NCBI GenBank assembly: GCA_030378035.1
Contig: JAUCGI010000001.1
Span: forward strand, 28,833-92,832
Direction: 5' to 3'
Source of the DNA: Desulfobacterales bacterium HSG2
GTDB lineage: Bacteria > Desulfobacterota > Desulfobacteria > Desulfobacterales > 4be13
Length of the DNA stretch: 64,000 nt
This document shows, piece by piece, positions 16,363 to 63,335 of this stretch (position 1 is its first letter; every line of letters starts with the position of its first letter). A model generated the notes under the pieces. The model did no database searches. It was given only the letters and a program-made list of their open reading frames with translations, and was not told the DNA's origin. Both the position numbers and the translations under genes were made by a program.

Positions 16363-16723
16363 TCTCGCATTTGTAACCGCTTCCGAAGCACTGAGGACCT
16401 ACTGGAAGACCGATGCGTTCAGCAAAACCGTTTTGGATAAATCTAAGCTGATTCACCGGCGTCTTAGGGAAATTGTCAGGCGATATCCCGGAACCGAATG
16501 GGATGTTCGCGGCCGCGGATTTATATGGGGAATAGATTTCGGTACTGCGGAGTTTGGTCCTCAGGTATGCGCTGAAGCCTTCAAACGGGGACTGATCATC
16601 GAAACATCGGGCAGAAATAATGTTCTGAAAATTACCCCTCCTCTGATTACAGATGAACAAGGATTGAATCGCGGACTTGACATTGTTGAAAAATGTGTGG
16701 GAAATTTGAAACTTGGAACTTGA
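16355..16723 (+). pseudogene. C-terminal remnant of a diaminobutyrate--2-oxoglutarate aminotransferase
   Basis: About 122 residues beginning GHNLAFVTASEALRTYW and containing DVRGRGFIWGIDF and NVLKITPPLITD. These are features of the C-terminal end of EctB/diaminobutyrate aminotransferase, a class III PLP enzyme of about 430 residues that makes L-2,4-diaminobutyrate from aspartate semialdehyde. The PLP-lysine half is absent. The frame is open through the 112-bp repeat to an ATG at 16286, but that N-terminus is an out-of-frame reading of the peptidase-like gene. The last codons and the TGA come from the adjoining GAAACTTG repeat. The fragment is probably inactive. Its presence beside an adenylation domain with a diaminobutyrate-like code suggests the cluster once carried its own precursor gene. 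Confidence 0.72.
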
Positions 16724-17010
16724 AATTTGAAATTTGAAATTTGAAATTTGAAATTTGAAATTTGAAATTTGAAATTTGAAATTTGAAATTTGAAATTTGA
16801 AATTTGAAACTTGAAACTTGAAACTTGAAATTTGGAACTTGAAATTTGAAATTTGAAATTTGGAACTTGAAATTTGGAACTTGAAATTTGAAACTTGGAA
16901 TTTGAAATTTGGAACTTGGAACTTGGAACTTGAAATTTGGAACTTGAAATTTGAAACTTGAAATTTGAAATTTGAAATTTGAAATTTGAAATTTGAAATT
17001 TGAAATTTGG
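16707..17010. repeat. 300-bp run of a 7-bp word (GAAATTT / GAAACTT)
   Basis: About forty copies of a 7-bp word, GAAATTT with GAAACTT and GGAACTT variants, run without interruption. Because 7 is not a multiple of 3, all three minus-strand frames are open and spell FKFQISN-like protein. These are not genes. The run starts inside the last codons of the aminotransferase remnant. Confidence 0.95.
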
Positions 17011-20162: not shown

Positions 20163-20165
20163 ACA

Positions 20166-37109: not shown

Positions 37110-37124
37110 GGATATCCGAAAACT

Positions 37125-37465
37125 TACTCTTGCTCTTGCTCTTGCTCTTTATCTTGCTCTTGCTCTTGCTCTTTATCTTTATCTTGCTCTTGCTCTTGCT
37201 CTTTATCTTGCTCTTTATCTTTATCTTTATCTTTATCTTGCTCTTGCTCTTTATCTTTATCTTGCTCTTGCTCTTTATCTTGCTCTTGCTCTTGCTCTTG
37301 CTCTTGCTCTTTATCTTGTTCCTGCTCCCAATTAGCAAGGGCAAGATTAAGAGCAAAGATAAAGATAAAGAGCAAGATAAAGATAAAGATAAAGATAAAG
37401 ATAAAGAGCAAGAGCAAGAGAAAGAGAAAGAGAAAGAGAAAGAGAAAGAGAAAAAGAAAAAGAAA
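37125..37465. repeat. 340-bp low-complexity 6-bp word inverted repeat (CTTGCT / AGCAAG)
   Basis: The left arm (37125-37323) is a run of CTTGCT and CTTTAT words; the right arm (37342-37465) is AAAGAT, AAGAGC and AAAGAG words. The two can form a very long imperfect hairpin. All frames through it are open and would encode poly-Leu/Phe or Lys/Glu/Asp/Gln; the open frame joined to the following gene from 37130 is an artefact. The right arm supplies that gene's AGAAAGG binding site. Confidence 0.95.
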
Positions 37466-37474
37466 GGTCTGAAT

Positions 37475-38686: not shown

Positions 38687-38785
38687 GTTCAATATCTACA
38701 AGGATTAGCGATAAGAAAAGGATTTTATGTCTGAACAGACCGAATCCTTTTCTTATCGCTAATCCCTGTAGATAAACGTATGTAA
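38687..38785. repeat. CTACAAGGATTAGCGATAAG palindrome
   Basis: CTACAAGGATTAGCGATAAG and GAAAAGGATT (38696-38727) pair with AATCCTTTTCTTATCGCTAATC and CCTGTAG (38743-38772). A near-identical hairpin is at 50662-50745, and its shortened relative builds the tandem array at 54407-55990. Confidence 0.85.
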
Positions 38786-46026: not shown

Positions 46027-48171
46027 ATGAAAAAGCTATTTACCATACTCTTATCAATTATGCTCATAAGCGGGCTCGTGTTTTTTTTATATCCCCAAGT
46101 GTCTCTGAAATTGAAAGAAGAACCCTACTATATTGCTGTGGCAGGACCTATGAGAGAGGCTGGCGGAGAGGCAATGCTCAGGGGCGTGGAACTGTATCTT
46201 GAGAAAGCAGGGAGAGAAGGCAGATTTGCAGGCAGAACCATAGAATTGCTTCAGAAAGATGATAAGGACCAGACGCGATTTGCTATGAAAATCGCTTCAA
46301 AGCTGCTTATGAACAAGAGGGTGCTGATTGTGCTCGGGCATTATTCCAGTCCGGCTTCCCTGGCGGCGGCTGAAAGTTACAAGGGGGTGCCTGTTATCAC
46401 CGCATCGGCCACCGCAGAAGGCCTTACCGCTTTTAATGACTGGTATTTCAGAGTGGTCCCGAATAGCCGTTTTATGGCAGATTTTATCACAACTTACCTT
46501 TATAATGTGATGGGGAAGTCATCGGTAAGTATTATATTTGATAAAGACCTTTACAGGCCTTCTCTGGCTGAAAATTTTGAAGAAGCTGCCAGGGATCTGG
46601 GAATTGAAGTTAAAAGGAAGTGGGGATTCGGCGGGGAAAGCAGATATCTGGATAACGAGTTAAGAAAGATTGTCACGGAGCTGAGAGCCGTGGAAGATCC
46701 CGGAGCGATCTTTTTCGCAACTTATGCGGAGAGCAGTGTGAGACTGATCACTTTGTTAAAATATCCGGGTACGAATTATACCATCATCGGTCCTGATTCT
46801 TATTCAGAGGAGTGGTTTATTGATACCCTGAAAGAATATCCCCTGGAGCGGGCCAGCCCCGGTTATTATTCGGACGGGATTTATGCGGTCTCCCCGTTTA
46901 TTGCGGACCTTGCCAAAAAGAAGGCCCTGGATTTCCGAAAAGAATTTATAAAGAAATATAATGAGGAACCTTCATGGGTGTCCGCGTGTTATTATGATGC
47001 CGCGCGGGTGGCAGTGGAGGCCATTGAGACATCCGATATCCGGGGGAATATAAGAAATGATCGGAGAGCGATCAGAGATTATCTGAAAACCCTGAATAAC
47101 AAAGAGGTTGCCATTCAGGGAATCACAGGGGATATTTATTTTGACGAAAAGGGCGATGTAAGTCGGCCGCTCGCCATGGGATTTTATAAAAAACAGAAGT
47201 TCCTTCCCGCATTTTTCCAATATCAGCAGCGATACACAACCGACCTTGAAGCGGAAATATATGATCCGCTGAAAATCGTGTGCGGAGAATCGGTGACCGA
47301 AACGCATGTGGTCCATACGGGTATCGATATCAATGAAATCAGCATAAGGCACTCGGAATACACCATAGATTTCTATATCTGGTTCCGCTTTCACGAAAAT
47401 TTTGATGACACAAATATTGAGTTTGCGAACTCGGTCCGCCCCATCAGATTGGAGGACCTGGTTATGGAGGAGAAAACAGGGGACATCACCACCCGGGCAT
47501 ACCATCTGCGGGCTGATTTTAAAAGTGTTTTTGATTTTTATGCGTACCCCTTTGACCGTCAGGTGCTGAAGATCAGCTTTCGCCACGCCGGCAAGCCGAG
47601 AAGCAGCGTGATTTACATCCCGGATGTTCTGGGAATGCCCGGCTCCCTGAAAGAAAGGGTTAAAAAAATAAGGACAGAAGCAAATGTGCAGTGGTATATT
47701 TATGACATGTCCTTTTATCAGGATATCAGCCGGGTACCTGATCACAGGGGGTATAAGACTGATTATTCTCAGTTCAACGGCACCATCCGGATCAAAAGAA
47801 AAGGGGTTGGTGTTATTTTCAAGTTTTTCTTCCCGATACTTGTGATGTTAGCGATTTCATATTCGATTTACTTTATACCCTTTGACCAGCCCGGGATTCA
47901 GGTATTGATTTTCCTGACCGTACTGATAACAAGCATTATTTTCCATATATTGTTTTTCCGAACCGTCGTCGGAGATTCAGCCATTAAATATGCTTTTTTT
48001 ACAATATATGCGTTATTGGCGATGGCCGGTTTCATCTCAATACCTGTCTATCACCGGAGCAGACAAGGGAAGGAAAAACCCAAGTTTCTGACCCGCATGG
48101 GAAAGATCATACATCCCTGTGTGGTTCTGATCGTCGGATCCTTATTCATATATATAACCAATAAGGGTTAA
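46027..48171 (+). CDS. periplasmic-binding-domain / pentameric ligand-gated ion channel fusion, paralogue 1
   Basis: 714 residues. A signal anchor (MKKLFTILLSIMLISGLVFFLY) is followed by a type I periplasmic-binding domain of the LivJ/receptor class (about 35-400: IAVAGPMREAGGEAMLRGVELYL, VLIVLGHYSSPASLAAAESY, ACYYDAARVAVEAIE). From about 420 the protein has a pLGIC extracellular domain: HTGIDINEISI, YTIDFYIWFRF, and a Pro-loop DFYAYPFDRQVLKISF (Pro508, Asp510, Gln512) matching FRRYPFDSQTLHI of the GLIC channel. Four membrane helices follow: M1 with the conserved Pro (FKFFFPILVMLAISYSIYF, about 597-617), M2 (QVLIFLTVLITSIIFHILF), M3 (YAFFTIYALLAMAGFISIP) and M4 (IIHPCVVLIVGSLFIYI). The layout of amino-terminal binding domain plus channel parallels eukaryotic receptor design. 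The last codons NKG-stop are part of the TAAGGGT repeat. Confidence 0.88.
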   Translation: MKKLFTILLSIMLISGLVFFLYPQVSLKLKEEPYYIAVAGPMREAGGEAMLRGVELYLEKAGREGRFAGRTIELLQKDDKDQTRFAMKIASKLLMNKRVLIVLGHYSSPASLAAAESYKGVPVITASATAEGLTAFNDWYFRVVPNSRFMADFITTYLYNVMGKSSVSIIFDKDLYRPSLAENFEEAARDLGIEVKRKWGFGGESRYLDNELRKIVTELRAVEDPGAIFFATYAESSVRLITLLKYPGTNYTIIGPDSYSEEWFIDTLKEYPLERASPGYYSDGIYAVSPFIADLAKKKALDFRKEFIKKYNEEPSWVSACYYDAARVAVEAIETSDIRGNIRNDRRAIRDYLKTLNNKEVAIQGITGDIYFDEKGDVSRPLAMGFYKKQKFLPAFFQYQQRYTTDLEAEIYDPLKIVCGESVTETHVVHTGIDINEISIRHSEYTIDFYIWFRFHENFDDTNIEFANSVRPIRLEDLVMEEKTGDITTRAYHLRADFKSVFDFYAYPFDRQVLKISFRHAGKPRSSVIYIPDVLGMPGSLKERVKKIRTEANVQWYIYDMSFYQDISRVPDHRGYKTDYSQFNGTIRIKRKGVGVIFKFFFPILVMLAISYSIYFIPFDQPGIQVLIFLTVLITSIIFHILFFRTVVGDSAIKYAFFTIYALLAMAGFISIPVYHRSRQGKEKPKFLTRMGKIIHPCVVLIVGSLFIYITNKG

Positions 48172-48386
48172 GGGGGTAAGTGTTAAGGGTTAAGTGTTAA
48201 GGGGTTAAGGGTTAAGGGTTAAGTTTTGCCTAACCTTAAACCTTGAAACTCGAACCTTGAAACTCGAAACTCGAAACTTAACCCCTTAACCCTTAACTCC
48301 TTAACTCCTTAGCCCTTAACCCTTAACCCTTATACCCCTTAACCCTTAACCCCTTAACCCTTAACCCTTATATCCCTTAGCTCCTT
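48165..48386. repeat. 7-bp word inverted repeat (TAAGGGT / ACCCTTA), telomere-like
   Basis: TAAGGGTTAAGG-type words occupy 48165-48224, a CTCGAAACTTGAAAC core follows, and TTAACCCTTAACTCC-type words run to about 48380. The plus-strand left arm holds closely spaced GGG runs (GGGGTTAAGGGTTAAGGG) that could form a G-quadruplex, and the right arm is its C-rich complement. It begins in the stop region of one channel-like gene and ends just before the next gene's start. Confidence 0.92.
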
Positions 48387-50453
48387 ATGAAAAAAACGCT
48401 GTTTAAACTGTTCCCGATCCTCTTTATCGGCGCGACTGTTATTATTTTTCTGCAAATCTGGGTTTTAAAAAAAGAGGCCATCTGTATCGCTGTCGTGGGG
48501 CCCACATCCGACGATCAGAGCATCCTGGGGAAAGCGATGCTTAAAGGGATTAATTTGTATCTTGATAAAATAAACAGAGGAGGCGGGATTAATGGCAGAA
48601 AGATAAAATTACTTATTTTTGACGACAATAATGATGAACTCGGTGCCATAAGAACGGCCTCCCGGATCGCAGATGAAAGAGAGGCCCTGCTTGTGCTCGG
48701 ACATTATTACAGCCGGACCTCTGTTGCGGCAGGAAGGATTTATAAACGGATGAGGGTTCCGGCCATCACAGCGTCTGCCACAGCAGAAAAAGTGACTTAT
48801 GGAAATGACTGCTATTTCAGAATCATACCGAGCAATGCGTTTGGAGCGAGTTTTATCGTAAATTTCGTTAACAAAAATCTCAGACAGCCCTCGGTAAACA
48901 TTGTATTCTGCAAAGATGATTATGGCCGCTCTCTTGCCGAAGATCTTAAAAAGGCGTGCCAGAGATTCGGTATTGAAGTAAAAAACAAATGGGAATTTTC
49001 CGGGAAAAATGATGAAGCGGTACGGATTGCAAGCGGGATCGAGGTCTCCGAAACGATTCTTCTGGCCATGCATGCTCCGGAAGCCGCGAAGCTCGTTGCC
49101 TTGTTAAAGGGGATGAATACGGATTATCAGATTGTGGGAGGCGATGCGCTTTCAACCGAATTGTTTCTCAGCGAACTTAAAAAATATCCCATGGAACAGT
49201 CTGTGCCGGGATATTGTTCAAACGGTATTTATGCTGTTTCTCCCTTTATGACTGGCGTAGCCAACGAAAAAGCGTATTCTTTCTCACGGGAATTTGTCAA
49301 GAGATATAATGAGAGGCCGTCATGGGTAACTGCGTGTTATTATGATGCGATACATGTTGCTGTGGAGGCGATCAGGCGGGCTGAGATTCAGGGATCAAGG
49401 GAAAATATAAGAAGTGACCGGTTAAAAGTGAGAAACGCTTTGGCAAGCTTTCACAATTCCAGTAACGCGATCATGGGGGTCACCGGAGATATCTATTTTG
49501 ACCCGGATGGTGATGCTGACAGGCCCCTTGCCATAGGCATCTATAAAGATCAGAAGCTTATTCCCGGGTTTTCGCAATATCAGATATCTGAACGCAAAGA
49601 TACTGGCGACATGTTCAAAAAGTCGCTGGACGGGGATGTGATCATTATCGGAGGGAAAATGATGAATAAGACCCGCATCGTATATGCGGGTATTTATGTT
49701 AATGAGATCAGTAATCTGGATATGGAAAACGGAACTTACACGGCAGATTTTTATCTGTGGTTCCATTATTCTGGGGCGTTTGATGACACGGGTATCGAAT
49801 TTACGAATTCGGTAAGTCCGATAATACTGAATCCGGTTTTTGATAAGGATGGTACGCGGGTCTATTATGTAAGGGCCGATTTTAAAGCGGACTTTGATTT
49901 CCGTGCGTATCCTTTTGATCAGCATAAGCTGCGTATCAGTTTCCGTCACACGAAGCTCACAAGAGACAGTCTCACATATCTTCCGGACAGAAGCGGGGTT
50001 CCTCCTTTTGTGAATGAAGAAAAGATCGGAAAAACAAGGTTTGATGCGGTCTCCGAATGGTCTTTGGGGGATATGCTGCTTTATCAGGATATCATAAGCA
50101 ATGTTTCCAGCCTGGGCAATCCCAGATTCTTCGATTCCCGGAACACGATCAGTCATTCCCGTTTCAATGCCGAGATATGTCTTAAAAGACTGACGCCGCT
50201 CAGGTCTTTTTTTCATATTTTTGTCATGATAATGACGTTATGCCTGACTCATTTCATATCTGCCAGAAGGCTGAGAATTCGTATGATGATACTGATGGCC
50301 ATACTGGTAGTGAATTTTTTTTATCATTTAAAGGTATTATTGGAATTGCCGGCCGGCTATCTGACTTTCATTGAATATGTTTTTCTTTCCACTTATATAT
50401 TGGTGACAGTGTCTGTTTTTATATCCGCGTCTAAGTATCGCTTTGATGCTTGA
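48387..50453 (+). CDS. periplasmic-binding-domain / ligand-gated ion channel fusion, paralogue 2 (M4 absent)
   Basis: 688 residues, same layout as the preceding gene. Signal anchor (LFPILFIGATVIIFLQIWVL), binding domain (about 30-400: IAVVGPTSDDQSILGKAMLKGINLYLDK, LLVLGHYYSRTSVAAGRIY, WVTACYYDAIHVAVEAIRRAE), pLGIC extracellular domain (YAGIYVNEIS, YTADFYLWFHY, Pro-loop DFRAYPFDQHKLRISF at about 505-520), then M1 (FFHIFVMIMTLCLTHFI, without the usual Pro), M2 (MMILMAILVVNFFYHLKVLLEL) and M3 (FIEYVFLSTYILVTVSVFISA). The protein ends ASKYRFDA right after M3, and those last codons and the TGA are the start of the GATGCTT repeat. The fourth helix is therefore missing, perhaps cut off when the repeat arrived. 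It may be an auxiliary or non-conducting subunit. Confidence 0.83.
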   Translation: MKKTLFKLFPILFIGATVIIFLQIWVLKKEAICIAVVGPTSDDQSILGKAMLKGINLYLDKINRGGGINGRKIKLLIFDDNNDELGAIRTASRIADEREALLVLGHYYSRTSVAAGRIYKRMRVPAITASATAEKVTYGNDCYFRIIPSNAFGASFIVNFVNKNLRQPSVNIVFCKDDYGRSLAEDLKKACQRFGIEVKNKWEFSGKNDEAVRIASGIEVSETILLAMHAPEAAKLVALLKGMNTDYQIVGGDALSTELFLSELKKYPMEQSVPGYCSNGIYAVSPFMTGVANEKAYSFSREFVKRYNERPSWVTACYYDAIHVAVEAIRRAEIQGSRENIRSDRLKVRNALASFHNSSNAIMGVTGDIYFDPDGDADRPLAIGIYKDQKLIPGFSQYQISERKDTGDMFKKSLDGDVIIIGGKMMNKTRIVYAGIYVNEISNLDMENGTYTADFYLWFHYSGAFDDTGIEFTNSVSPIILNPVFDKDGTRVYYVRADFKADFDFRAYPFDQHKLRISFRHTKLTRDSLTYLPDRSGVPPFVNEEKIGKTRFDAVSEWSLGDMLLYQDIISNVSSLGNPRFFDSRNTISHSRFNAEICLKRLTPLRSFFHIFVMIMTLCLTHFISARRLRIRMMILMAILVVNFFYHLKVLLELPAGYLTFIEYVFLSTYILVTVSVFISASKYRFDA

Positions 50454-50600: not shown

Positions 50601-50940
50601 CCTGTCATTCCGGGCAAAAATGATAAAAATCGGCAGGATTTTTGGATGTGTCCCTCCTTTTACATACGTTTATCTACAAGGATTAGCGATAAGAAAAGGA
50701 TTCGGACATGAAATCCTTTTCTTATCGCTAATCCTTGTAGATACTGAGCCGGAATGCTGTTCTCCGAAAAGCATTATGTGCCGAAGCATTTTGTCCATGA
50801 ATTGCGGGAGTATCTGAGCATAAATCTGAAATCCTTGTAGTTTTGCCGGCAATTTTTCCCGCAACTTCAAGGATTACACATAAGTAAAGGATCGGCTCTG
50901 AAAATAAATCCCATTCTTATGTGAAATCCCTGTAGTTTTT
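50601..50940. repeat. three consecutive palindromic repeats
   Basis: First, CATTCCGGGCAAAAATGATAAAAATCGGCAGG (50604-50640), a half element of the CATTCCGGGCA family. Second, ATCTACAAGGATTAGCGATAAG ... CTTATCGCTAATCCTTGTAGAT (50671-50742), a near-perfect hairpin. Third, AACTTCAAGGATTACACATAAG ... CTTATGTGAAATCCCTGTAGTT (50862-50938). No gene is credible here. Confidence 0.85.
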
Positions 50941-51065: not shown

Positions 51066-54000
51066 ATGAAAAAAGTTATAAAGAATGTTATGCAATCGGT
51101 AATCATCATTTTTCTGTCGGTTATCCCTGTCATGCCAGTTTGTGCTGACGGAACTCACCCTCGGGGGATCAGCTTGGACGGAAGCGTCGGGAATGCCGGA
51201 AAACTGGATCTGCCGGGTCCGAATTATGAGATTAAGCCCGAATACGGGCAGCAGGCCGGCGCGAATCTGTTCCACAGTTTTCACCGATTCAACATCCATT
51301 CTGATCAGAGCGCGACCTTCAGCGGTCCCGATTCGGTTCAGAACGTCATCAGCCGCGTTACTGGCGGGGATGCTTCATGGATTGACGGAACGCTCCGTTC
51401 CACAATTCCGGGGGCGGACATGTATCTGCTGAATCCCGCGGGCGTGATGTTCGGTCAGAATGCGGCCCTGGATCTGGGCGGTTCGTTTCATGTCAGCACC
51501 GCGGATTATCTGCGCATGGGGGAGAATGACCGGTTTTATACGGTACCCCATGTGAATGATGTCCTATCGGTGGCCGCACCCGCTGCCTTCGGGTTTTTGG
51601 ACGCTGATGTGGGCAAGATATCTGTTGAGGGTATGGGGGAGTTGACAAAAGAGGTTTGGGGGGAAGAGGAATATAAGAGCTGGGGGGATTGGAGACGTAA
51701 GAACCCTGATTTTTTCCCGGGCCTTGTGGTCCCTGAGGGGGAAAGTATTTCCATGATCGGCGGGGATGTTGAGATAAGCGGAACATATTACTACCTCGAG
51801 AGTGAAGATGCCTCATACAATGTGCCAGTGGGTTCAAGCCTCAACGCGCCCGAAGGCCGGGTGAATCTGGCAGCCCTCCGCGACGAGGGTGAGGTGAAAA
51901 TAACGGATTCCGGGTTGGATATGCCGGCAGGAGAAACAGGGGACATTACCCTGTCAGACGGATCGAGAATCACGGTAACCGGGAACGAAGATGAAGAGTT
52001 CGGGGCCGGAAGCGTCTTTATTCGCGGGGGCAGATTTGTCATGGATGGTGGGGCTGAAATTCTGTCTCAGCCAGGTCATGAGGACGGCCAGGTGATTGAT
52101 ATACAGGCAGATCACATATCATTAAAAGGTAACAGTGAGATTAATGCCAACACTTATGGAAAGGGCAATGGAACAGATATACAGATCAATGCATCGGAAG
52201 AGGTGATTATTGTTGATGGGAAGATCAGAAACAGCTCTTCTTATATAGGTGATGACCCGGGTGACGGAGGCACACTTTCCATTCAGACGAAAATTTTGGG
52301 TGTATCGGGCAATGAAGCCTGGCTTGGCGGTGAGTCGATTTCCGGCAGTGGAAGGGGAGGAGATACGACTATTCATGCATCTGAATCGGTTCATGTCTCC
52401 GATAAGGCGAGAATATCAACTTCGGCCCAAAAAGACAGTACGGGTCAGGCCGGAGATATAACGATTAATACACCGTCTCTGCTGCTCAACACCAAAGCTG
52501 TTATTGAAAGCGGTTCAATGGGTAAAGGAGAAGGCGGAAACATTGCCATCCATACAGGGAATCTCAAAGTGATGAGCGGGGGCAAGATTTCTGTTCGAAC
52601 AGAACAGACTGGCTCAGGAGGGAGCCTGGCGATATCTGGGGCTGATCCTGAAAGCCATGAGGATTTTGCAGATTCCGTCACCCTGACCGGAGCGGAGAGC
52701 GTCATTCGTGCGGATACCACCGGCAGATCTGACGCGGGGAGGATATCAATAACAGCAAGAAAGTTGTCACTGACCGAGGACGCGTCTATTGTCACCTCAA
52801 GCTCGGACAGGGGAAATGCAGGGGATATAACACTGAATCTCGAATCTCTTGATCTCAGCAAGGGGGCCTCTGTGGCTTCGGCAAGCGAATATCCTGTGGC
52901 GAATATTTACAGTATCGCGACGATCCCGGATCTGGATGGCCTGACGGATTCCGCTCAGGAAGGGGATATTGCCATTGTGGAGGATGCGGGCACAGGCAAT
53001 TATGGAACCTTTATCCGGACCGGGACCCAGGAACCGTGGATACAGATTACGGAGAAAGTCACCAGAGTCCAAGATATGGCTCCGCTGAATGATCTTATGG
53101 CCACACTGAGGATCGGGCCGGGAGAAGTCTTTATTGTGGAAGATATGGGAGACGGCACATCCGGGGCTTTTGTACATGAAAAATTAGTTGTCTGGACTCA
53201 AATCAGAAATATCTACGCTCTTTCCGATCTTGCACAACGGGACCGATTTATCTCATTGCCGGGTGATATTGCTCAGTCTGATGCTGGAGGAGGAACAGTA
53301 AGAAATTTCGTCTATACCGGGGAAGAATGGGTCGGATTTGAAAATATTTATACGGTCCCCGATCTTGCAGAGCGGGATACGCTGCCCGTACAAAAGGGAG
53401 ATGTAGCCAAAGTTGCGGACGCGGGAGATGGTGCCGCAAAAAGCTTTATCTTCGATGGCGAAGAGTGGACAGATTTTTATATGACCGGGAATGCCGGGAG
53501 AGTGACAATTGATGCCGGGGATGCGGTTACACTTGAGGATGACGCGTACCTGAGTACGGAGAACAGCGGGGGACTTGGCCCCGGAATAACGAGTCTGAAT
53601 GCGGGCAGACTGGAACTGAGCGGAAATGCGTTCATATCCTCCACAAGCGAAGCCATCGGCGACGCGGGAACCATCTCCATTCATGCGGATACAGATGTCA
53701 CCCTAAAGGATGACGCCGCCCTGACCACTGCAACGCTGGCCCAGGGCATGGGCGGGGACATCACCGTGACAGCCAAGAATCTTGAGATCAAAGACGGGGC
53801 CAGGATATCATCCGCAAGTCAGGCCGAATCCGGTGGCGGCGATGCAGGAAGCATATCCGTCCATGCCGAAGATTCCGTCAAACTCTCCGGATCCGCCGCG
53901 CTGACCAGCGAAGCAATAAGTGGCGGTGGAGGGATCATCTCGGTGAACACGGAAGACAGATTGCAACTGACAAACAGCCAGATCACCACCAGCGTCAGTC

Positions 54001-54401
54001 AGGGGGCCGGTAAAGGAGGGGACATCAACATCGGTGAGCCGCGTTTCGTCATACTGAATCAGAGCAAAATCAGTGCGAACGCCGACCAGGGAGATGGCGG
54101 AGCAATCTTCATCATCACAGACAATTACATCAAATCCGCAGAAAGCAGCGTGACCGCCACATCAAAAAGAGGGAACGACGGAACCGTCAGAATCGAAGCC
54201 CCGGACACCGACATAAGCAGCGAGCTGGTCGTGCTGCCTGAAACCTTTTTTGACGCAGCCCGCTGGTTAAAGAAACCCTGTGCCGAGAGAACAGGGGAAA
54301 AGACCAGTAGCTTTGTAATAAAAGGGCGTGACGCAGCAACCGTGACCTTTGACGGGTGGCAGCCGAGTCCGCTGATGGACACATCCGGCGGGTCTGAATA
54401 A
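51066..54401 (+). CDS. filamentous-hemagglutinin-type exoprotein, TpsA of two-partner secretion
   Basis: 1111 residues. Signal peptide (SVIIIFLSVIPVMPVCA), then a TPS secretion domain (about 35-180: GANLFHSFHRFNIHSDQSATF, NVISRVTGGDASWIDGTL, GADMYLLNPAGVMFGQNAALDLGGSFHVST). The rest is a beta-helix of short repeats (GGDITINT, VTLTGAESVI, GNAGDITLNLESL). Residues about 615-800 interrupt it with four copies of a 40-50 residue unit of the form IYTVPDLAERD....GDVAKVADAGDG..KSFIFDGEEW. The C-terminus (WLKKPCAERTGEKTSSFVIKGR) is a typical end for these exoproteins. No TpsB porin gene is in the window. AAGGAGG precedes the ATG. Confidence 0.9.
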   Translation: MKKVIKNVMQSVIIIFLSVIPVMPVCADGTHPRGISLDGSVGNAGKLDLPGPNYEIKPEYGQQAGANLFHSFHRFNIHSDQSATFSGPDSVQNVISRVTGGDASWIDGTLRSTIPGADMYLLNPAGVMFGQNAALDLGGSFHVSTADYLRMGENDRFYTVPHVNDVLSVAAPAAFGFLDADVGKISVEGMGELTKEVWGEEEYKSWGDWRRKNPDFFPGLVVPEGESISMIGGDVEISGTYYYLESEDASYNVPVGSSLNAPEGRVNLAALRDEGEVKITDSGLDMPAGETGDITLSDGSRITVTGNEDEEFGAGSVFIRGGRFVMDGGAEILSQPGHEDGQVIDIQADHISLKGNSEINANTYGKGNGTDIQINASEEVIIVDGKIRNSSSYIGDDPGDGGTLSIQTKILGVSGNEAWLGGESISGSGRGGDTTIHASESVHVSDKARISTSAQKDSTGQAGDITINTPSLLLNTKAVIESGSMGKGEGGNIAIHTGNLKVMSGGKISVRTEQTGSGGSLAISGADPESHEDFADSVTLTGAESVIRADTTGRSDAGRISITARKLSLTEDASIVTSSSDRGNAGDITLNLESLDLSKGASVASASEYPVANIYSIATIPDLDGLTDSAQEGDIAIVEDAGTGNYGTFIRTGTQEPWIQITEKVTRVQDMAPLNDLMATLRIGPGEVFIVEDMGDGTSGAFVHEKLVVWTQIRNIYALSDLAQRDRFISLPGDIAQSDAGGGTVRNFVYTGEEWVGFENIYTVPDLAERDTLPVQKGDVAKVADAGDGAAKSFIFDGEEWTDFYMTGNAGRVTIDAGDAVTLEDDAYLSTENSGGLGPGITSLNAGRLELSGNAFISSTSEAIGDAGTISIHADTDVTLKDDAALTTATLAQGMGGDITVTAKNLEIKDGARISSASQAESGGGDAGSISVHAEDSVKLSGSAALTSEAISGGGGIISVNTEDRLQLTNSQITTSVSQGAGKGGDINIGEPRFVILNQSKISANADQGDGGAIFIITDNYIKSAESSVTATSKRGNDGTVRIEAPDTDISSELVVLPETFFDAARWLKKPCAERTGEKTSSFVIKGRDAATVTFDGWQPSPLMDTSGGSE

Positions 54402-54406
54402 ATCAT

Positions 54407-55990
54407 CTGCTACAAGGATTGTGTATGTATCATCCACAAGGATTGTGGTTAAGAAACTTCCATGAAAACAAATTTTCACCCCGATGATGGAAATGTATTT
54501 TCATGGTAACAGGATTGCCCGCCTCCGCCTGTCATTCCGGGCAAAACTGAAAAAAAAGGGACTTTTTTTTCAGTTTTGACCCGGAATCCACTGTTGCCGG
54601 GTCCGAACAAATCCTCTTCTTATGTGCAATCCTTAGTAGTTGTCACGCCTGGGACAGCCCACAACTACAAGGATTGCACATAAGAACAGGATTGCCCACC
54701 TCCGCCTGTCATTCCGGGCAAAACTGAAAAAAAAGGGACTTTTTTTTTCAGTTTTGACCCGGAATCCACTGTTGCCGGAGTCCGAACAAATCCTCTTCTT
54801 ATGTGAAATCCTTGTAGTTGTCACGCCTGGGACTGCCCACAACTACAAGGATTGCACATAAGGACAGGATTGGCACGGGAGGTCCGAACAAATCCTCTTC
54901 TTATGTGAAATCCTTGTAGTTGCCACGCCTGGAACTGCCCACAACTACAAGGATTGCACATAAGAACAGGATTGTGATTGCCCGCAACTACAAGGATTGC
55001 ACATAAGAACAGGATTGGCACGGGAGGCCCGAACAAATCCTCTTCTTATGTGAAATCCTTGTAGTTGTCACGCCTGGGACTGCCCACAACTACAAGGATT
55101 GCACATAAGAACAGGATTGCCACGGGAGGTCCGAACAAATCCTCTTCTTATGTGAAATCCTTGTAGTTGTCACGCCTGGGACTGCCCGCAACTACAAGGA
55201 TTGCACATAAGAACAGGATTGGCACGGGAGGTCTGAACAAATCCTCTTCTTATGTGAAATCCTTGTAGTTGTCACGCCTGGGACTGCCCACAACTACAAG
55301 GATTGCACATAAGAACAGGATTGGCACGGGAGGTCCGAACAAATCCTCTTCTTATGTGAAATCCTTGTAGTTGTCACGCCTGGGACAGCCCACAACTACA
55401 AGGATTGCACATAAGAACGGGATTGGCACGGGAGGTCCGAACAAATCCTCTTCTTATGTGAAATCCTTGTAGTTGTCACGCCTGGGACTGCCCACAACTA
55501 CAAGGATTGCACATAAGAACAGGATTGCCCGCCTCCGCCTGTCATTCCGGGCAAAACTGAAAAAAAAAGGACTTTTTTTTTCAGTTTTGACCCGGAATCC
55601 ACTGTTGTCGGGTCCGAACAAATCCTCTTCTTATGTGCAATCCTTAGTAGTTGTCACGCCTGGGACAGCCCACAACTACAGGGATTGCACATAAGAACAG
55701 GATTGCCACGAGAGGTCCGAACAAATCCTCTTCTTATGTGAAATCCTTGTAGTTGTCACGGCTGGGACTGCCAGAAACTACAAGGATTGCACATAAGAAC
55801 AGGATTGCCCGCCTCCGCCTGTCATTCCGGGCAAAACTGAAAAAAAAGGGACTTTTTTTCAGTTTTGACCCGGAATCCACTGTTGCCGGAGTCCGAACAA
55901 ATCCTCTTCTTATGTGAAATCCTTGTAGTTGTCACGCCTGTGATTGCCCCGCAACTACAGAAAATGTCCGCCTTTCAATTTTAACCGGAA
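54407..55990. repeat. tandem array of 102-bp palindromic units with interspersed CATTCCGGGCA elements
   Basis: The unit is AACTACAAGGATTGCACATAAG-AACAGGATTG, a GCACGGGAGGTCCGAA loop, CAAATCCTCTTCTTATGTG-AAATCCTTGTAGTT and a GTCACGCCTGGGACTGCC spacer. The two arms are complements of about 33 bp. The loop motif recurs at 55017, 55119, 55221, 55323 and 55425, exactly 102 bp apart, with further units on either side. Four CATTCCGGGCA hairpins (54533, 54706, 55540, 55820) are inserted in the array at the same point of the unit. There are no unique spacers, so this is not CRISPR. No gene is credible in the array. Confidence 0.93.
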
Positions 55991-56218
55991 TGACATGATG
56001 GGACACACTCAAAAAAAATTCTATTCTTATGTGTAGTTTTTTAGTTAGAAAAAGCTGCACATTGTGTAATATAAGACTAAGGAGGATGTGCATTTTTGAT
56101 AGGGAACTGCATACAATGCAGCCGTTGTTCAGTGGGGTGGTGGATTTCGCTTCGCTTCACCCACCTTACAGGAATGCGGGATAATTTTTTTAATTTTACA
56201 CAAAATGAAGGAGAGGTA

Positions 56219-59200
56219 ATGATGAAAACACAAACAAAGGTATGTATTATGGCCGCAGTCTTTCTGATCTGTGGTTCGTTTCTGACTGGTTCATCTGCGT
56301 TTGCCATCCAGGTTAGCGGGACGGTAATTCTTGAGGACAGTGGCGATCCTATGGTGGGAGCGGATATCTCCGCCAAGAACGAGCGATCTACCGAGGTTAC
56401 AGACACAACGGTTGATAATGGAGGTTTCACGCTCGTGATCGAGAGTGAGGGGATATGGGAGATCAAGGTCAGCCCGCCTTCGGATAACGAGACGTATAGT
56501 GGATATAATCAAGGCGAACTCGTTAAACTGGATATCAAAGACTTGAATAAGAATATAACATTGCCCGAATCCATAAAAATGAGGCGCGTCAAAGAGATCC
56601 GGGGATTTGTGATCATTCCGGAAGACTCTGGCCCTCCGGATGGAGGCGATCCGCCAAATCCGGATGAAGGCGATCCGCCAGATCAGCCGTTGGGTGAATA
56701 TGTGGCGGATGTATTAGTAACAGCCTATACCGACGACCATGGCACTCGTATTGAGAAACGTACAAACGAAAACGGGGAGTACATTCTGCCCGATGTGTTT
56801 GAGGGAAACTGGACCATCTATGCGGATGCCACATTTACTGAGAATTACAAAGAGTATGGCCAATCGGAACGGGTGAAAGTAACGGTCGGAATGGGTGAAG
56901 TAACGCCAGCTCAGCCGTTGGAACTCCATAAATGTCACAAGCGGATATTTGGCTCGGTGACATTTAACGGAGAGAGTCTTCCCGATATCGAGGTCCACGC
57001 GAACGATTGGCATATAGAGGATGGCACCAGGGTTGTCCATACTGACTCGAACGGTGCTTTTGAGATATGGGTACCGCTGGGAAGGTGGGAGATCAGAGTC
57101 CCACAGGTTGAAAATGTCCAATGGTTCAGCCCGGAGCCGATGGAGGCGGAATTTGAGCCGACCCCTGAAAGTGAAGAAGAGAGACAGATTTCCATCGCTC
57201 TTCAGCCTGTGGGAACTGAAGAGAGCTATGGCGGCTATCTGAAAGGCCAAGTCGTGAAAGGATCCGACAGCACACTGCTGACCTCGGACGGAGATATCAA
57301 TGAATACGTCCGCATTAAGGCAGTCAGCCCGGAAAGCGGTTTTTCCCGATCCGTCAATCTGAAATCGGACGGCACTTTCATCTTTCCCCTTCCAGTGGGT
57401 CTTTATAAAGTCACTATATGGTTAGACAAGAATCAATACGGCGATTACGGCATTCCCCCTCCCATGCTTGTTCGGATGGATTCGGGAGAGACTGAAGAGG
57501 ATATGGGGGATATTGTTTTAAAGGAGAGAAATCTGAGCGTCCAGGGTCAGGTTACGGACGGTACGGATGTTGAGGAAAACGGTATTTCCGGTATCCGTGT
57601 GGAAGCTTGGGGTCCCGATCAGAGGGATCGGTTTTTTGCTGAGACGGATGTGTTCGGGAATTACACGATTAATCTGCCGGCCGGGAAGTGGCATATCCGG
57701 CCAATCATTCCCGGCAGACGGACGGATCTCTTCCGTGAGGTAAATCTGGCTGAAGGCGTCGAAGGAGAGGATATTGACTTTGTGGTGACGGACGCGGACA
57801 ATGTGATCAGCGGAACTGTTAAAGACCAGAGCAGAAACATCCTGACAGACGTGAAGGCCAGGGCGTATGCCCGTCTTAAAGGCAGCCCCAGACCCGTGAG
57901 CGAGGCATGGGTGGAAAACGGCACGTTCACTCTGAATGTCCCTGCCGGCACCTTCTATGTGGGGCTGCGGCTCGCACCGGATAGTGAGTACGCGTTTGCT
58001 GAAGAGAATGAAAGGGTTCCCACCCAGGATACTGAGATATTCACCCTGACATCCGACAGAGTGGTAATCAGCGGACAGTTTCTGGATTCGGCCGATGATA
58101 GCCCGGTGACTGGTATTGAGGGCCGTGTTTTTGTAACACCTGTCAATGAAAGAGCCTCTTGGCATGGTGTTGATATTAATACAGAAGACGGTTCCTATAA
58201 TTTGTCTGTGCCGGCAGGCACATGGAATATGGGGTATGACCTGAAGACGGATCAGTATCTGCCTCATCCGGAGCAGCCGATTCAGGTTGAGGTCGCTTCC
58301 GAAGGAACCACCAAAAAAGACATTACTCTCACGGAGTTAAGCAGTACGGTCAAAGGGCAGGTGGTGGGCCCGGATGGGAATTCCATGTCCGATGTGCAGG
58401 TATGGGTCCGCCAATTCCGTACAGGCGAAACAGGGCAGAGTATTTTTACATCTTCCGTATTCACGGATGCTGATGGAAAATTTGAGATAACTGTACCCGC
58501 GTCTTCTGCAACGAGAACCTCAAAGGGAACTTCTAAAGATTACAATGAATATTACGCCTGTTTATATACCGCGATAGATGAGTGCGGCGAGGATGACTAC
58601 TATTGTCTTGTAGATGCGGAGGTAGAGTGTCAACAGGAGCTTTACAAAAGATATTCGCCAAGAGCTGATGAGGATGTGATCCTGACCCTGCGCAAGGCCG
58701 ATACCTATGTGGAGGGAACGGTCTTAAAATCCGACGGTCAGACTGTGGAAGGCGCCTTTGTCTCCGCACACAGCAAAGACGGCCAGAGCACCAGCGGCTA
58801 TACCAAAAGCGATGGAACATATCAGCTCGATGCGGCCAAGGCAGAGACTTTCTGGGTAGCAAGGGCCTGGTATAAAGAGGTGGGTGATGATGCGTATTAC
58901 CGCAGTGACTTCGTAACCACCACCTCATCCAGCGCCGATGAAACCATCACCATGCTGGACCTGACCCTCCCCGCGGAAGCCAGCGGCAAACTGCCGACAT
59001 CGGAAACCGATGATTTCCTACTGGAAGATGGCTGGATAGCGACCCTGTCCGACGGAACCGAGATACAGATCCCCGCGGACGGGATACGCACCGAAGAGAC
59101 TGACTTGACCGTTGTGATTGCTCCCCAGATCGAGCTGCCTGAAAGCTCGAAAAACCGAATTATCGGTTACGGCTACACCATGACCCTCTATGAAAAAGAT

Positions 59201-59644
59201 ACAGGTGTGGAGATCCTTGATGACTTTGTCGAAGAGGCGAAGATCTGCATATATTACGATGAGTTGGAAGACCAGTTGACCCTGTTGGAAGTGACCGTAG
59301 CGGATATCCGGGCAGCCTATTTTATGACCGAATCGAATTCCTGGCAGACGCTCGGCAGCTACACCCTTGACGAAGAGAATAAAAAGATCTGTTTTGAGAC
59401 CGATCACTTCTCAGATTGGGCCTTGATAGCCGTAATCTCCGAAGAACCGTCACCCGGAGACATAAACAACAGCACCGCAGTTGACTTGGCCGATGCGATA
59501 CTGGCCCTGCAAGTCTGCACAGAGTCTCCCATAACCTCAACCATTTACGCAGCCGCAGACGTAAACGATGACAAGAAGATCGGGCTGGCAGAGGTGATTT
59601 ACATCCTTCAGAAACTTGTTGTCAATACCGGAACTCATAGATGA
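56219..59644 (+). CDS. secreted multi-domain protein with carboxypeptidase-regulatory-like repeats and dockerin-like tail
   Basis: 1141 residues from the ATG at 56219 (GGAGAGG upstream). Signal peptide (KVCIMAAVFLICGSFLTGSSAFA). The body is at least eight CarboxypepD_reg/CNA-B-like beta-sandwich domains of about 90-100 residues, each with the pattern V.G.V.......P..GV.V.......G....T.T..DGSY.L.VP.GTW (for example DGTFIFPLPVGLY, DGSYNLSVPAGTWNMGY). A Pro/Asp-rich linker (PEDSGPPDGGDPPNPDEGD) lies near residue 140. The last 60 residues have two EF-like calcium motifs, GDINNSTAVDLADAILAL and ADVNDDKKIGLAEVIYIL, matching a type I dockerin. The window shows no cohesin. It is probably a surface or extracellular adhesin. 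Confidence 0.87.
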   Translation: MMKTQTKVCIMAAVFLICGSFLTGSSAFAIQVSGTVILEDSGDPMVGADISAKNERSTEVTDTTVDNGGFTLVIESEGIWEIKVSPPSDNETYSGYNQGELVKLDIKDLNKNITLPESIKMRRVKEIRGFVIIPEDSGPPDGGDPPNPDEGDPPDQPLGEYVADVLVTAYTDDHGTRIEKRTNENGEYILPDVFEGNWTIYADATFTENYKEYGQSERVKVTVGMGEVTPAQPLELHKCHKRIFGSVTFNGESLPDIEVHANDWHIEDGTRVVHTDSNGAFEIWVPLGRWEIRVPQVENVQWFSPEPMEAEFEPTPESEEERQISIALQPVGTEESYGGYLKGQVVKGSDSTLLTSDGDINEYVRIKAVSPESGFSRSVNLKSDGTFIFPLPVGLYKVTIWLDKNQYGDYGIPPPMLVRMDSGETEEDMGDIVLKERNLSVQGQVTDGTDVEENGISGIRVEAWGPDQRDRFFAETDVFGNYTINLPAGKWHIRPIIPGRRTDLFREVNLAEGVEGEDIDFVVTDADNVISGTVKDQSRNILTDVKARAYARLKGSPRPVSEAWVENGTFTLNVPAGTFYVGLRLAPDSEYAFAEENERVPTQDTEIFTLTSDRVVISGQFLDSADDSPVTGIEGRVFVTPVNERASWHGVDINTEDGSYNLSVPAGTWNMGYDLKTDQYLPHPEQPIQVEVASEGTTKKDITLTELSSTVKGQVVGPDGNSMSDVQVWVRQFRTGETGQSIFTSSVFTDADGKFEITVPASSATRTSKGTSKDYNEYYACLYTAIDECGEDDYYCLVDAEVECQQELYKRYSPRADEDVILTLRKADTYVEGTVLKSDGQTVEGAFVSAHSKDGQSTSGYTKSDGTYQLDAAKAETFWVARAWYKEVGDDAYYRSDFVTTTSSSADETITMLDLTLPAEASGKLPTSETDDFLLEDGWIATLSDGTEIQIPADGIRTEETDLTVVIAPQIELPESSKNRIIGYGYTMTLYEKDTGVEILDDFVEEAKICIYYDELEDQLTLLEVTVADIRAAYFMTESNSWQTLGSYTLDEENKKICFETDHFSDWALIAVISEEPSPGDINNSTAVDLADAILALQVCTESPITSTIYAAADVNDDKKIGLAEVIYILQKLVVNTGTHR

Positions 59645-59679: not shown

Positions 59680-60076
59680 ACACCACGCCATTCCGGGCAG
59701 AACGGCAGGGCCGTCAGATCACGCATTGGTCAGAAAGGGACGCATTGGTTAAAGTTCAGGCCGGCCCCTGTCATTCTGCCCGGAATGACAGCGTGTTTTT
59801 GCGGCCGACATATTTGCAGAGCACGCATAATCCTTTCTTACCCACAATCCGTGTAGATTCACGTTGGGCAGCGTGTTTTTGTAAGGGAGAGTGGATTCCG
59901 GGTCAGAATGGCAGGGCCGGCTCGTGCTCTGACAAAGGTGTGCTCTTCCAACCAAGGTGTGCTCTGACGGCCCTGCCATTCTGCCCGGAATGACAGCGTG
60001 TTTTTGCAGCGTGTTTTTGCGGCCGACATATTTGCAGAGCACGCATAATCCTTTCTTATCCACAATCCGTGTAGCC
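59680..60076. repeat. mixed palindromic and direct repeats
   Basis: CATTCCGGGCAGAACGGCAGGG (59690) and CCTGCCATTCTGCCCGGAATG (59970-59990) belong to the CATTCCGGGCA family. A segment TTTTTGCGGCCGACATATTTG ... CCACAATCCGTGTAG occurs twice (about 59795-59854 and 60003-60073). The second copy forms the 3' end of the minus-strand TIR gene. Confidence 0.85.
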
Positions 60077-62002
60077 ACACTCCAGAACCTGCCGTCCCAC
60101 CACCCGAAACACCTCACATCGCCAGACAAGCCGTTTCCCGTCATCGCTTTGCTTAATAAGGTCCCTCCAATATAACCGCCTTAACAGGGGATCAAAAATG
60201 TAGGGCCGAACATCCCCCACCTCATTCTGTTCAAACAACCGGCAAAGTCTCTGCCGGACAGCGGTGTCCCGAATAAAAGACATAAACAGTTGCCAGACAA
60301 AAGGCGTCTGGATCAGTGCCTCCTTGCAGGTATCCGGATCAGAGCATGCATTCCGATGATAAAAATCCAAGCACTGTTGCAGCAACCCGGGATGTCCGCC
60401 ACTGATATGCAGCAGTTCCCCAACTCTTCTCTCACTCAGGACCTGCCCCGGGCACCGGTGTTCCCACATACAATGAACATCGCCCGCGGTCAGTTCTGGC
60501 CATTCACACACCTCGGCCGAATTCGGGAAAGAGAGTGTGCCGACAAAGAACAGATCAGCCAGCCTTTCCCCGCCGCAGAGCAGAAACCGGAGATTCGGAC
60601 AGCGTTCGCCGAGGCTGCGAAAAGCTCCGGCAATATCCCTGAGTCCCTCATCACAACTGTTTTCAAAACCGCTCACCATAATAAGCAACGGTTCTCCCCG
60701 ATCCTTCAATCTCTCTTCAAAATCGCTCACAAACCCGGCGGAACTTGTCACAGACTCGGAAAAACCGCATTGCCTGCCCAGAACGGAAAAATAATCCTCC
60801 TTATGTGAACGAGGGCTGTACGGCAGAACAAGGCGAATAAGATTCTCCTCATGAAACCGTTTTCCGGCCTGTTCCGAAAGAGATGATTTCACAGCGCTTT
60901 GCCCCCTGTCCCCCTGAGCCAGAAGCAGAACCGCCTGTTTTGTGTGAAACAGTTCAAACAGTTCCTCAGCAAAAGAGATTTCTATCTGATTCGGCTGCTC
61001 TTCCGTCAGCTCGGGAGGCATGATCAGCTCACCTCTGAAAGCCGCATCGGGACCGGGGTGTCTCTCTTCCATGGCGCAGATCAGATGGCAGAATGCTTTG
61101 CGATAGGTCTCCGGATTTCGGAAATCCAGCCACCGGACATCTCTGAGAAAGGGAAAGTCGGGAACGCCCTTTCCCAAAGTCACCGGAATAATGGCAAAAT
61201 CAGGATTCTCGCTCTGCTGAACCGTCATCCGGTTGTATGTTTCCCTGACCCATCCGGACTCAATACTCTTTGCAGTGACAACCAGAATCCCCTTTCGGGA
61301 CTCTTTTAATCCCCGGCAGAGTTCATCCGCAATGCTTTCGGCAGGTGCCAGTTCCCGGATGTCAAGAAAGACGCGGTATCCCTGATCTTCCAGATTCCGG
61401 ACCAAAACTTCCACCCAGGGCACACACTCGCTGTTGTGGCTGATAAAGATATCCCGGAGTTTGCCGCTCTGATTTGGGAGACTGCCGCTTCTGACAGCCT
61501 CAGGCAGTCTGATCTCGGAATCCCTTATATCATAGAAATCAGGAGCAAACTCCGCCATCTGGCGGACCGTGTTCGGAGAGACCCATAGAATACAGGGAAC
61601 CGGAAAAGCCCGGACCAGATCATCCCGCTCCACATTGATCCGGGTGATCAGGGGGGCCGGCCGCAAACCCGGGCCCGCGGTCCGATCTTTTTCTGACGAG
61701 GAGCGGATAACCGGCCGGGTGTGTTCTTCCAGATGAGACAAACTGATCACCCGGGGACCTGATTCCGGGACATGTTTCCGTATGTCCCGGGCGATTCCCC
61801 TTGCCCCCGCATGAGCAGGCAGGTCCTTTCCCTCAATGGCAATCAGTTTTATTCCCCGCTGTGACAGATCAGATGCCAGACGGTCACGCCACCGGGTCTG
61901 CAAGTCATCATTTCCGCTTTGGACAATCAGGAGCGAAAATCCGATGTCCGTTTCCAGAGCAAAATGCAGCAGGGTCCGATAAGTTTTATCTTCAGGATTC
62001 AT
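60056..62002 (-). CDS. TIR-domain protein with ATPase-like C-terminal region
   Basis: 648 residues. The N-terminal 170 residues hold a Rossmann-like segment (FSLLIVQSGNDDLQTRW, PCILWVSPNTVRQMA). Residues 181-310 are a TIR domain: RDIFISHNSECVPWVEVLVRNL, GYRVFLDIRELAPAESIADEL, GILVVTAKSIESGWVRETYNRM. In the last motif the Glu four residues after Trp is the position of the NAD-cleaving glutamate in bacterial TIR effectors. The C-terminal half resembles a STAND/AAA_16-type NTPase remnant (QAVLLLAQGDRGQSAVKSSL, LIMVSGFENSCDEG, LLHISGGHPGLLQQCLDFY) with a poor Walker A. The ATG overlaps the upstream ATPase stop by 11 bp. The last five residues and the stop come from a CACGGATTGTGG repeat. Confidence 0.83.
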   Translation of the reverse strand: MNPEDKTYRTLLHFALETDIGFSLLIVQSGNDDLQTRWRDRLASDLSQRGIKLIAIEGKDLPAHAGARGIARDIRKHVPESGPRVISLSHLEEHTRPVIRSSSEKDRTAGPGLRPAPLITRINVERDDLVRAFPVPCILWVSPNTVRQMAEFAPDFYDIRDSEIRLPEAVRSGSLPNQSGKLRDIFISHNSECVPWVEVLVRNLEDQGYRVFLDIRELAPAESIADELCRGLKESRKGILVVTAKSIESGWVRETYNRMTVQQSENPDFAIIPVTLGKGVPDFPFLRDVRWLDFRNPETYRKAFCHLICAMEERHPGPDAAFRGELIMPPELTEEQPNQIEISFAEELFELFHTKQAVLLLAQGDRGQSAVKSSLSEQAGKRFHEENLIRLVLPYSPRSHKEDYFSVLGRQCGFSESVTSSAGFVSDFEERLKDRGEPLLIMVSGFENSCDEGLRDIAGAFRSLGERCPNLRFLLCGGERLADLFFVGTLSFPNSAEVCEWPELTAGDVHCMWEHRCPGQVLSERRVGELLHISGGHPGLLQQCLDFYHRNACSDPDTCKEALIQTPFVWQLFMSFIRDTAVRQRLCRLFEQNEVGDVRPYIFDPLLRRLYWRDLIKQSDDGKRLVWRCEVFRVVGRQVLECGYTDCG

Positions 62003-63335
62003 TGAACCGCCTTAATATTTCCTGATCATTGAATATGTCCGAGGAATAGATCAGGGGATGGACATCCGCCCACTTCTCCCCGTTGTATTCCAGCGCAAAC
62101 CGGTAAAACAACTGCCGCGCGCTCTCCGGGCTGTGGTCAGCCCTTTTGGACCGGTTGATTTCGTGCAACACAGGCAAATCATCAAAGCGCAGCGGGTTCA
62201 TAAATTCATTGCGAACCTCATGAATCCCCTTTTTCACATCATCCATGGCGATCGGATGTTCCCATGCCTCTTCCGCGGCCTTTAACAGCAGATGCATCAG
62301 CTCCCGCAGAGAACCGCCGCTGGCGAGAACCAGTTCCTTCATGCAGGCATACCGCTCATCAGGCTCCCCTGCAAACACCTTGTCCTCTTCCACACGGGCC
62401 TTGATCACATCAACAAGCCGGTCCACTCCATCCTGCCAGCATGTATCCCACGCCTGTTCCTTTTTCCTGATTTTCGGCATGGGCATAACCAGGGGCGGAA
62501 AGTTGAATTCGGAGAGCGGCTCGCCCTGGGGGTTGTATATCAGGCCCAGGGGGACAGTGATGATGATGTGAACATTCAGTTGCTCAAAGAGATCCGACCA
62601 CTTGCTGAACGCGTTCTCCATGACTTCGGGGGGATGCCGGTCCAGATTATCCACGATCAGCACCAGTTCGGATATCATCCCTGATTTCTCCAGCAGTCCC
62701 CGGATGCGGTCAAAAAATTCGTTCATTCGGTGGATCAGTTCTGTCGGCTTTCTTTTGAGCCTGTGCCGGATCTCTTTGACAGACTTATGCCCTCCGGTAA
62801 TGCGCCCGGTCAGATTGATTAGAAGTTTCAGCAGACCGGGCACGGAAAATCCGGCTTCGGCCACGCTCCTGACTTCGATGCCGCTCTCATAGCTCTCCTG
62901 CTCTGTCCAGGTTTCGCTGGCAAACCAGTTTTCAACGGACCGGAACATGTCGTCGTCAACCTCGACACGCCGGCAGACGTCTTCCAGAGTCATCGTCACG
63001 AGATAGAGCATCAGATCCGGATAATCCAGATCATAGACGGCCAAGTCGGAATAAGCCTGTTTATAAACAAAGAAAGATTCATCCTTCATCTCCTCCATAA
63101 AGGCAAACAGCTCGGTGGTCTTGCCGTTTCCACGATGACCCGCATAGCTGATATGGACGGATTTCCGATTCGGATCGTCAGGGTCAATGTATAAGGATCG
63201 TCTGAGTTTCTCCCGGATATCATCTCCCCGTATGTCATCGAGAGCCACATATCTGGGGTCACCGGCTTCAAGGTGAAGCGGCTTGGCAACCCGCCTGACC
63301 TGCTTGGGATTCTCCGCTTTTTTAAAAGGCTGCAT
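61992..63335 (-). CDS. P-loop ATPase coupled to the TIR protein
   Basis: 447 residues; GGAAAGGAC lies before the ATG. Walker A is SYAGHRGNGKTTELFAF at about 67-83, Walker B is ELVLIVDNLDRHPPEV near 240, followed by IHIIITVPLGLIYNP as sensor 1 and a winged-helix-like tail (LASGGSLRELMHLLLKAAE). This is an AAA_16/KAP-like NTPase. With the overlapping TIR gene it forms a two-gene unit of the form seen in anti-phage systems, where an ATPase senses infection and the TIR domain depletes NAD. The pairing is seen; the function is inferred. Confidence 0.8.
   Translation of the reverse strand: MQPFKKAENPKQVRRVAKPLHLEAGDPRYVALDDIRGDDIREKLRRSLYIDPDDPNRKSVHISYAGHRGNGKTTELFAFMEEMKDESFFVYKQAYSDLAVYDLDYPDLMLYLVTMTLEDVCRRVEVDDDMFRSVENWFASETWTEQESYESGIEVRSVAEAGFSVPGLLKLLINLTGRITGGHKSVKEIRHRLKRKPTELIHRMNEFFDRIRGLLEKSGMISELVLIVDNLDRHPPEVMENAFSKWSDLFEQLNVHIIITVPLGLIYNPQGEPLSEFNFPPLVMPMPKIRKKEQAWDTCWQDGVDRLVDVIKARVEEDKVFAGEPDERYACMKELVLASGGSLRELMHLLLKAAEEAWEHPIAMDDVKKGIHEVRNEFMNPLRFDDLPVLHEINRSKRADHSPESARQLFYRFALEYNGEKWADVHPLIYSSDIFNDQEILRRFNES

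Follow-up and report, generated by a model that had tools for sequence, protein, structure and literature searches.

A dispersed REP/MITE-like palindrome family forms a tandem array in Desulfobacterales bacterium HSG2 and provides insertion hotspots

Desulfobacterales bacterium HSG2 carries, between two co-oriented genes for cell-surface proteins, a tandem array of palindromes that is a member of a dispersed REP/MITE-like family (hereafter A), the copies of which are insertion hotspots. The array probably represents tandem amplification of one dispersed non-coding A element, and it has multiplied recently. This reading draws on the A family itself, its covarying stems, its sharp ends without target duplication and its bias towards intergenic sites, together with the near-identity of the array units, the junctions shared by a second palindrome (B) nested in them, and insertions at fixed points. 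Movement by a transposase of the RAYT (TnpA-REP, Y1) type, as originally proposed, is unsupported. The A family, its spread and the strength of its association with a small element (C) are new here; a literature search with the A end sequence returned unrelated papers only, and the papers searched held no description of the family. The window, meaning the whole stretch of 64,000 nucleotides analysed, is part of a 117-kb contig (C107) of a 5.6-Mb draft genome that comprises 288 contigs and is 72.6% complete. Repeats can be misassembled in such a draft, though the array is interior to its contig.

The original prediction of 102-bp palindromic units in tandem, with a hairpin in place of some loops, proved accurate in its outline. 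Left and right arms of a 77-bp palindrome alternate, 11 of each (right, AAATCCTCTTCTTATGTGMAATCCTTGTAGTT; left, AACTACAAGGATTGCACATAAGAACAGGATTG), with right arms starting at 54606, 54785, 54887, 55032, 55134, 55236, 55338, 55440, 55617, 55720 and 55896 and the spacing exactly 102 bp from 55032 to 55440. Within the array 258 different 20-mers are repeated, up to 11 times, and none are repeated in three shuffles. The hairpin CATTCCGGGCA replaces the 15-nt loop exactly four times (54533, 54710, 55543 and 55823), and units containing B are about 178 bp long rather than 102 bp. An 86-nt A unit is computed to fold into one long hairpin (-30.2 kcal/mol, z = -12). One junction is an extra 43-bp half unit, and two components had been overlooked: an element D and half of a B palindrome at the right end (Table 1). 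An Rfam search of the window at gathering thresholds matched no family. As judged from its sequence, the downstream gene likely has its true start near 56220, with a signal peptide.

Table 1. Positions of the array, its components, related elements and flanking genes in the window.
Feature	Position	Strand	Basis or remark
Isolated A element, N5 = AGCGA	38696..38771	+	same family as array
Isolated A element, N5 = AGCGA	50674..50740	+	same family as array
Diverged A element	50860..50940	+	sequence comparison
Upstream gene, TPS-secretion-domain (filamentous haemagglutinin-like) protein	51066..54401	+	Pfam PF05860, E = 1.6e-31
First, variant A left arm CCACAAGGATTGTGGTTAAG	54434..54453	+	one mismatch to CTACANGGATT-N5-TAAG consensus
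Element D, AAACTTCCATGAAAAC...TTTTCATGGTAA	54454..54509	+	sits after TAAG of first A arm
B1, core of palindrome B in A loop	54517..54600	+	downstream unit type as B3
A tandem array	54606..55959	+	11 right and 11 left arms; most units 102 bp, 97-100% identical
B2, core of palindrome B in A loop	54694..54778	+	downstream junction type as B4
Extra half unit, duplicated 43-bp A left arm	54966..55008	+	one junction of array
B3, core of palindrome B in A loop	55527..55611	+	downstream unit type as B1
B4, core of palindrome B in A loop	55807..55889	+	downstream junction type as B2
B right half, GAAAATGTCC...GGGACACACTC	55960..56010	+	joined to truncated A left arm; compared with full-length B copies
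Downstream gene, CarboxypepD_reg repeat protein	56096..59644	+	Pfam PF13620, E = 4.1e-39

Other features of the window lie apart from the array. Three adjacent genes (17872-21161, + strand) match PADLOC NsnA, NsnB and NsnC (E about 1e-98 to 1e-103) and probably constitute a complete Nsn-type anti-phage system. At 60056-63335 (- strand) a gene for a 648-aa TIR-domain protein overlaps a 447-aa gene that has no Pfam or PADLOC match, a possible two-gene defence operon. A large NRPS gene at 217-6939 (+ strand) encodes Condensation, AMP-binding, Aminotran_3 (aminotransferase) and PP-binding domains. Many 6- and 7-base tandem repeats (GAAATTT, CTTGCT, TAAGGGT/CTTAACC) lie between genes or at their edges, at 16701-17009, 37123-37466, 48162-48387 and other sites.

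Family A has the consensus CTACARGGATT-N5-TAAG...loop...CTTA-N5'-AATCCYTGTAG over about 56-80 bp, and its arms of about 30 bp make up terminal inverted repeats. The single relatives reported earlier from the window are real: complete palindromes that differ in a stem segment lie at 38687 and 50662, a diverged copy at 50862, and half copies at 59825, 60045 and 63589. Genome-wide, the A unit has 156 matches among the matches listed, many of them the two arms of one palindrome cross-matching, and arms occur singly, as palindromes or in other short arrays. A pattern search found about 124 arms in this genome and 62, 92, 10 and 6 in four sister genera, and the reversed pattern, used as a control, gave zero matches. 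A strict two-arm pattern that leaves the inner five bases and the loop free finds complete palindromes in 10 genomes out of a draw of 291 from the class, counting this one (9 of 290 others; control zero). All listed relatives with complete palindromes belong to the same family or the same order. The closest relatives in the comparison, Desulfonema magnum 4be13 among them, number four and are of this family. Further afield, the strict pattern matches one copy in Ca. Marithrix and one in a Flavobacteriaceae MAG, both first named by an earlier pattern. These two copies have N5 and loop features in common, which raises the possibility that the one in the MAG was binned in error. Among the giant sulfur bacteria, Ca. 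Thiomargarita nelsonii contains unclassified palindromic repeats and two described MITEs, the ends of which carry direct repeats or TATA (PMC4853749).

Stems of A covary. In the alignment 94.6% of cells are paired and 45 are double-changed, against 16.8 in shuffles; the covariation score was reached by 0 of 500 shuffles, and all slid alignments were far worse. Arm-to-arm identity in N5 is 3.93 of 5 positions, compared with 2.21 when partners are shuffled across all elements (0 of 2000) and 3.61 when they are shuffled within genomes (16 of 2000 reach it), the latter difference being only slight. The covariation is thus mostly a between-genome effect: the inner five bases vary among genomes while pairing is mostly kept. 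In one genome (G195) four exact copies are listed with inner five bases that all differ, complementary in two and not in two; A elements there (L205-L207) are 56-57 bp long, with the loop almost absent.

Isolated copies have sharp ends of the form NN-CTACA...TGTAG-N'N', and their flanks are unrelated. No direct repeat of 3 bp or more rises above shuffles at 54 elements, and a 2-bp AT signal at the ends fits symmetric ends, with AA/TT and CG/CG in other subfamilies. By crude open-frame calls, most sampled loci lie outside open frames, and the neighbouring genes are tandem at 35, convergent at 12 and divergent at 12.

Palindrome B is dispersed as well, with 206 matches in the genome among those listed, many of them in arrays; at full length it measures about 145 bp, its ends being GGGTGTGTCCCA...TGGGACACACCC. 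The junctions do not bear out a reading of its four occurrences in A loops as independent insertions. At all four the junctions with A are nearly the same and the inner stem is A8/T8, which sets them apart from the best other B copies; B copies elsewhere in the genome are at most 95% identical to the array pieces (93% for the best others). By downstream junction and A unit the inserts fall into two pairs, B1/B3 and B2/B4. Near-identical junctions with two types of downstream unit suggest a single event that was then amplified, and the four are most likely descendants of one insertion or recombination. One capture of B followed by block duplication is the simplest reading of these sequences. 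One clean insertion does not account for the interleaving of A and B, in which the left part of B is in the loops and the right part at the array end.

Other elements do enter A at fixed points; these lie in the stem and at the terminus, not in the loop. The earlier suggestion that palindromes are entered at a fixed place thus holds in part: small palindromic elements enter A at many loci, but the site is in the stem. The clearest case is element C (GCTCCCC...CTTTCAGGTCAGTTCTTNCCTGAAAG...GTTTTCTTAGTAG), a small element that was searched for by its own sequence, so its sites are unbiased by the search for A. Nearly all copies with a complete left end follow [GC]ATAA, right flanks are arbitrary and there is no duplication; most copies have a subterminal hairpin, CTTTCAGG...CCTGAAAG, as read from the sequence. 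A fixed 5' target without target duplication is the habit of IS200/IS605 elements. Of 18 clear cases counted by hand, 11 have C inside an A arm, where it follows CATAA or GATAA, and these are spread over eight contigs and several A subtypes; a script that merged identical copies and applied a stricter arm test gave 9 of 19. The abundance of [GC]ATAA predicts about 0.06 such cases, with copies taken as independent and only the five-base target considered. A longer preferred target, or the copying of A and C as a composite, would lower this enrichment. Some cases might indeed be composites copied together, although the eight contigs and several N5 types argue against this and for repeated insertion events. 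The position in A (CATAA|G) carries the target sequence, which explains the fixed stem site at least in part, rather than the loop. Insertion can do without a hairpin, since other C copies occupy plain GATAA sites. Three of the C copies, at L128, L132 and L133, follow AACTGATAA, which at L128 is a run of GATAACT repeats, reminiscent of the TAACTGA repeats of Beggiatoaceae.

Which family does C come from? It is similar to the PATEs, palindrome-associated elements derived from IS200/IS605 (PMC4853749), in being small and non-coding, with a subterminal hairpin, a fixed 5' target and no duplication. It departs from them in that C ends were not found on any TnpA or TnpB gene, and therefore the parentage of C is assigned by habit only. 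Three TnpB-like loci in this draft genome were considered as parents and lack C ends; one of them resembles an IS607-type pair by inspection. In D. magnum a D-type element follows TAAG in at least seven A arms (L146, L147, L149, L150, L152, L154 and L160); these loci were found through A, and so no enrichment is claimed. In both D. magnum and this genome, IS630-like insertion sequences with HTH and DDE_3 domains, or their remnants, break A at the TA of its end and are flanked by TA on either side. REPs are known targets of IS3, IS110, IS4, IS256 and IS5 family elements (Tobes and Pareja, 2006; PMC1525189), and A is comparable in being invaded by mobile elements time and again at a single position. 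It differs in its guests, a tiny non-coding IS200/IS605-like element and an IS630-like insertion sequence, which use different fixed points.

The history of the array could then be as follows. A would have spread by means of a trans-acting enzyme and without target duplication; no enzyme that moves A was identified. In a genome that abounds in mosaic palindromes, repeats and hairpins may have promoted replication slippage or unequal recombination to give the 102-bp array. One loop may have taken up a piece of B a single time, after which B multiplied along with the units and block duplications produced the B1/B3 and B2/B4 pairs. A arms also serve as landing sites for the IS200/IS605-like C after CATAA and for IS630-like insertion sequences at the terminal TA. 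A wider proposal is that A, throughout the order, draws in small elements that move by way of single-stranded DNA, that hairpins guide insertion and so give rise to mosaic nesting, and that A has a novel mover that causes no duplication; this is offered tentatively, as an idea with perhaps a quarter of the weight in its favour. If it is true, C, and the D-type element in Desulfonema, would be captured at one nucleotide far beyond what a short target predicts.

Two of the alternatives concern what moves A. It might be a MITE derived from a DDE or IS110-type insertion sequence that is yet to be discovered and has A-like terminal repeats, a reading that accounts for the long terminal inverted repeats, the sharp ends and the dispersal across genera and to Ca. 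Marithrix; the near-loopless G195 copies also resemble joined terminal inverted repeats. Such an origin is nonetheless unlikely, given the lack of target duplication of 3 bp or more and that pairs of A arms 3-4 kb apart in D. magnum have no recognised transposase between them by inspection; long A-bounded elements bearing a transposase were sought in that genome and none were recognised.

Less probable still is that A or B is a true REP of a RAYT-type Y1 transposase, which placed B into extruded A loops. REPs and BIMEs with their RAYTs (Nunvar et al., 2010; PMC2817692), and REPINs (PMC3116915), are like A in being short intergenic palindromes of high copy number, in clustered mosaics, with genome-specific stems in which pairing is preserved. 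GTAG at the stem end and the lack of target duplication also fit, and a search of 40 genomes of relatives found Y1 genes in 35, sister genera included. By definition, however, a REP set has a flanking rayt gene with two inverted REP copies and a GT(A/G)G head adjoining the palindrome (PMC2817692). A is numerous, intergenic and clustered, but it does not flank the Y1 genes read in sister genera and has no head outside the palindrome: CTAC/GTAG is paired within the stem in 24 of 24 aligned elements. In this genome no Y1_Tnp match passes threshold in the 72.6%-complete draft; the best (E about 0.19-0.2) lies inside a 1160-aa frame. None was found in G014, another draft, which has seven A elements. 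The absence is weak evidence in so incomplete a genome, and the flanks of relatives provide a stronger test: around 17 Y1 loci in four sister genera there are no A or B arrays, and many of these loci sit among other, unrelated palindrome arrays, for example GTCCCGTAGGGAC with CCCGGCAATTCATTGCCGGG. The apparent single event behind the four B inserts also counts against repeated insertion into loops. As far as these tests go, the Y1 enzymes observed within its family do not have A as their REP. The mover could still be a Y1 enzyme that is encoded in the quarter of the genome left unsequenced or that works from a distance.

Some of the sister-genus Y1 loci are of interest in themselves. Those at L092, L093, L094, L099 and L103, which belong to D. 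magnum and a sister genus, are RAYT-like and lie in dense arrays of the GTCCCGTAGGGAC/CCCGGCAATTCATTGCCGGG type. These are REP-like arrays in Desulfobacterota, to be compared with the proposal that RAYTs arose after the gammaproteobacteria branched off (PMC2817692, 2010).

Selection for a platform, whether for nucleoid or topoisomerase binding, as a transcription barrier or as an mRNA stabiliser, is an improbable reason for the array, at a level slightly below that of a RAYT. Covarying stems, very stable hairpins and the site between co-oriented genes speak for it. Against it, sampled A copies are found between genes of every relative orientation (tandem, convergent and divergent), A and B arrays occur at many unrelated loci, and no terminator-like site was found inside the array. 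An array of terminators was ruled out on the last of these grounds and because A copies also lie between divergent genes. The host effect of an amplified A element is likely that of near-neutral clutter in a safe intergenic site, with the array possibly damping read-through from the upstream gene. Integron attC sites were dropped as a candidate, A ends in other genomes being without GTT/AAC boxes. A CRISPR-like array, suggested by several loci at which the spacing is regular (about 64-102 bp), has next to no chance of being correct and was ruled out, as there are no unique spacers and the stretches between arms are near-identical, the units being tandem duplicates.

Taken with its relatives, the array reveals a palindrome family common to Desulfobacterota genera and a filamentous sulfur oxidiser. 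Four nested copies of B need not mean four insertions, which corrects a reading to that effect. A, hit at the same nucleotide on eight contigs, is a natural data set for a wider question: do hairpins steer single-strand transposition?
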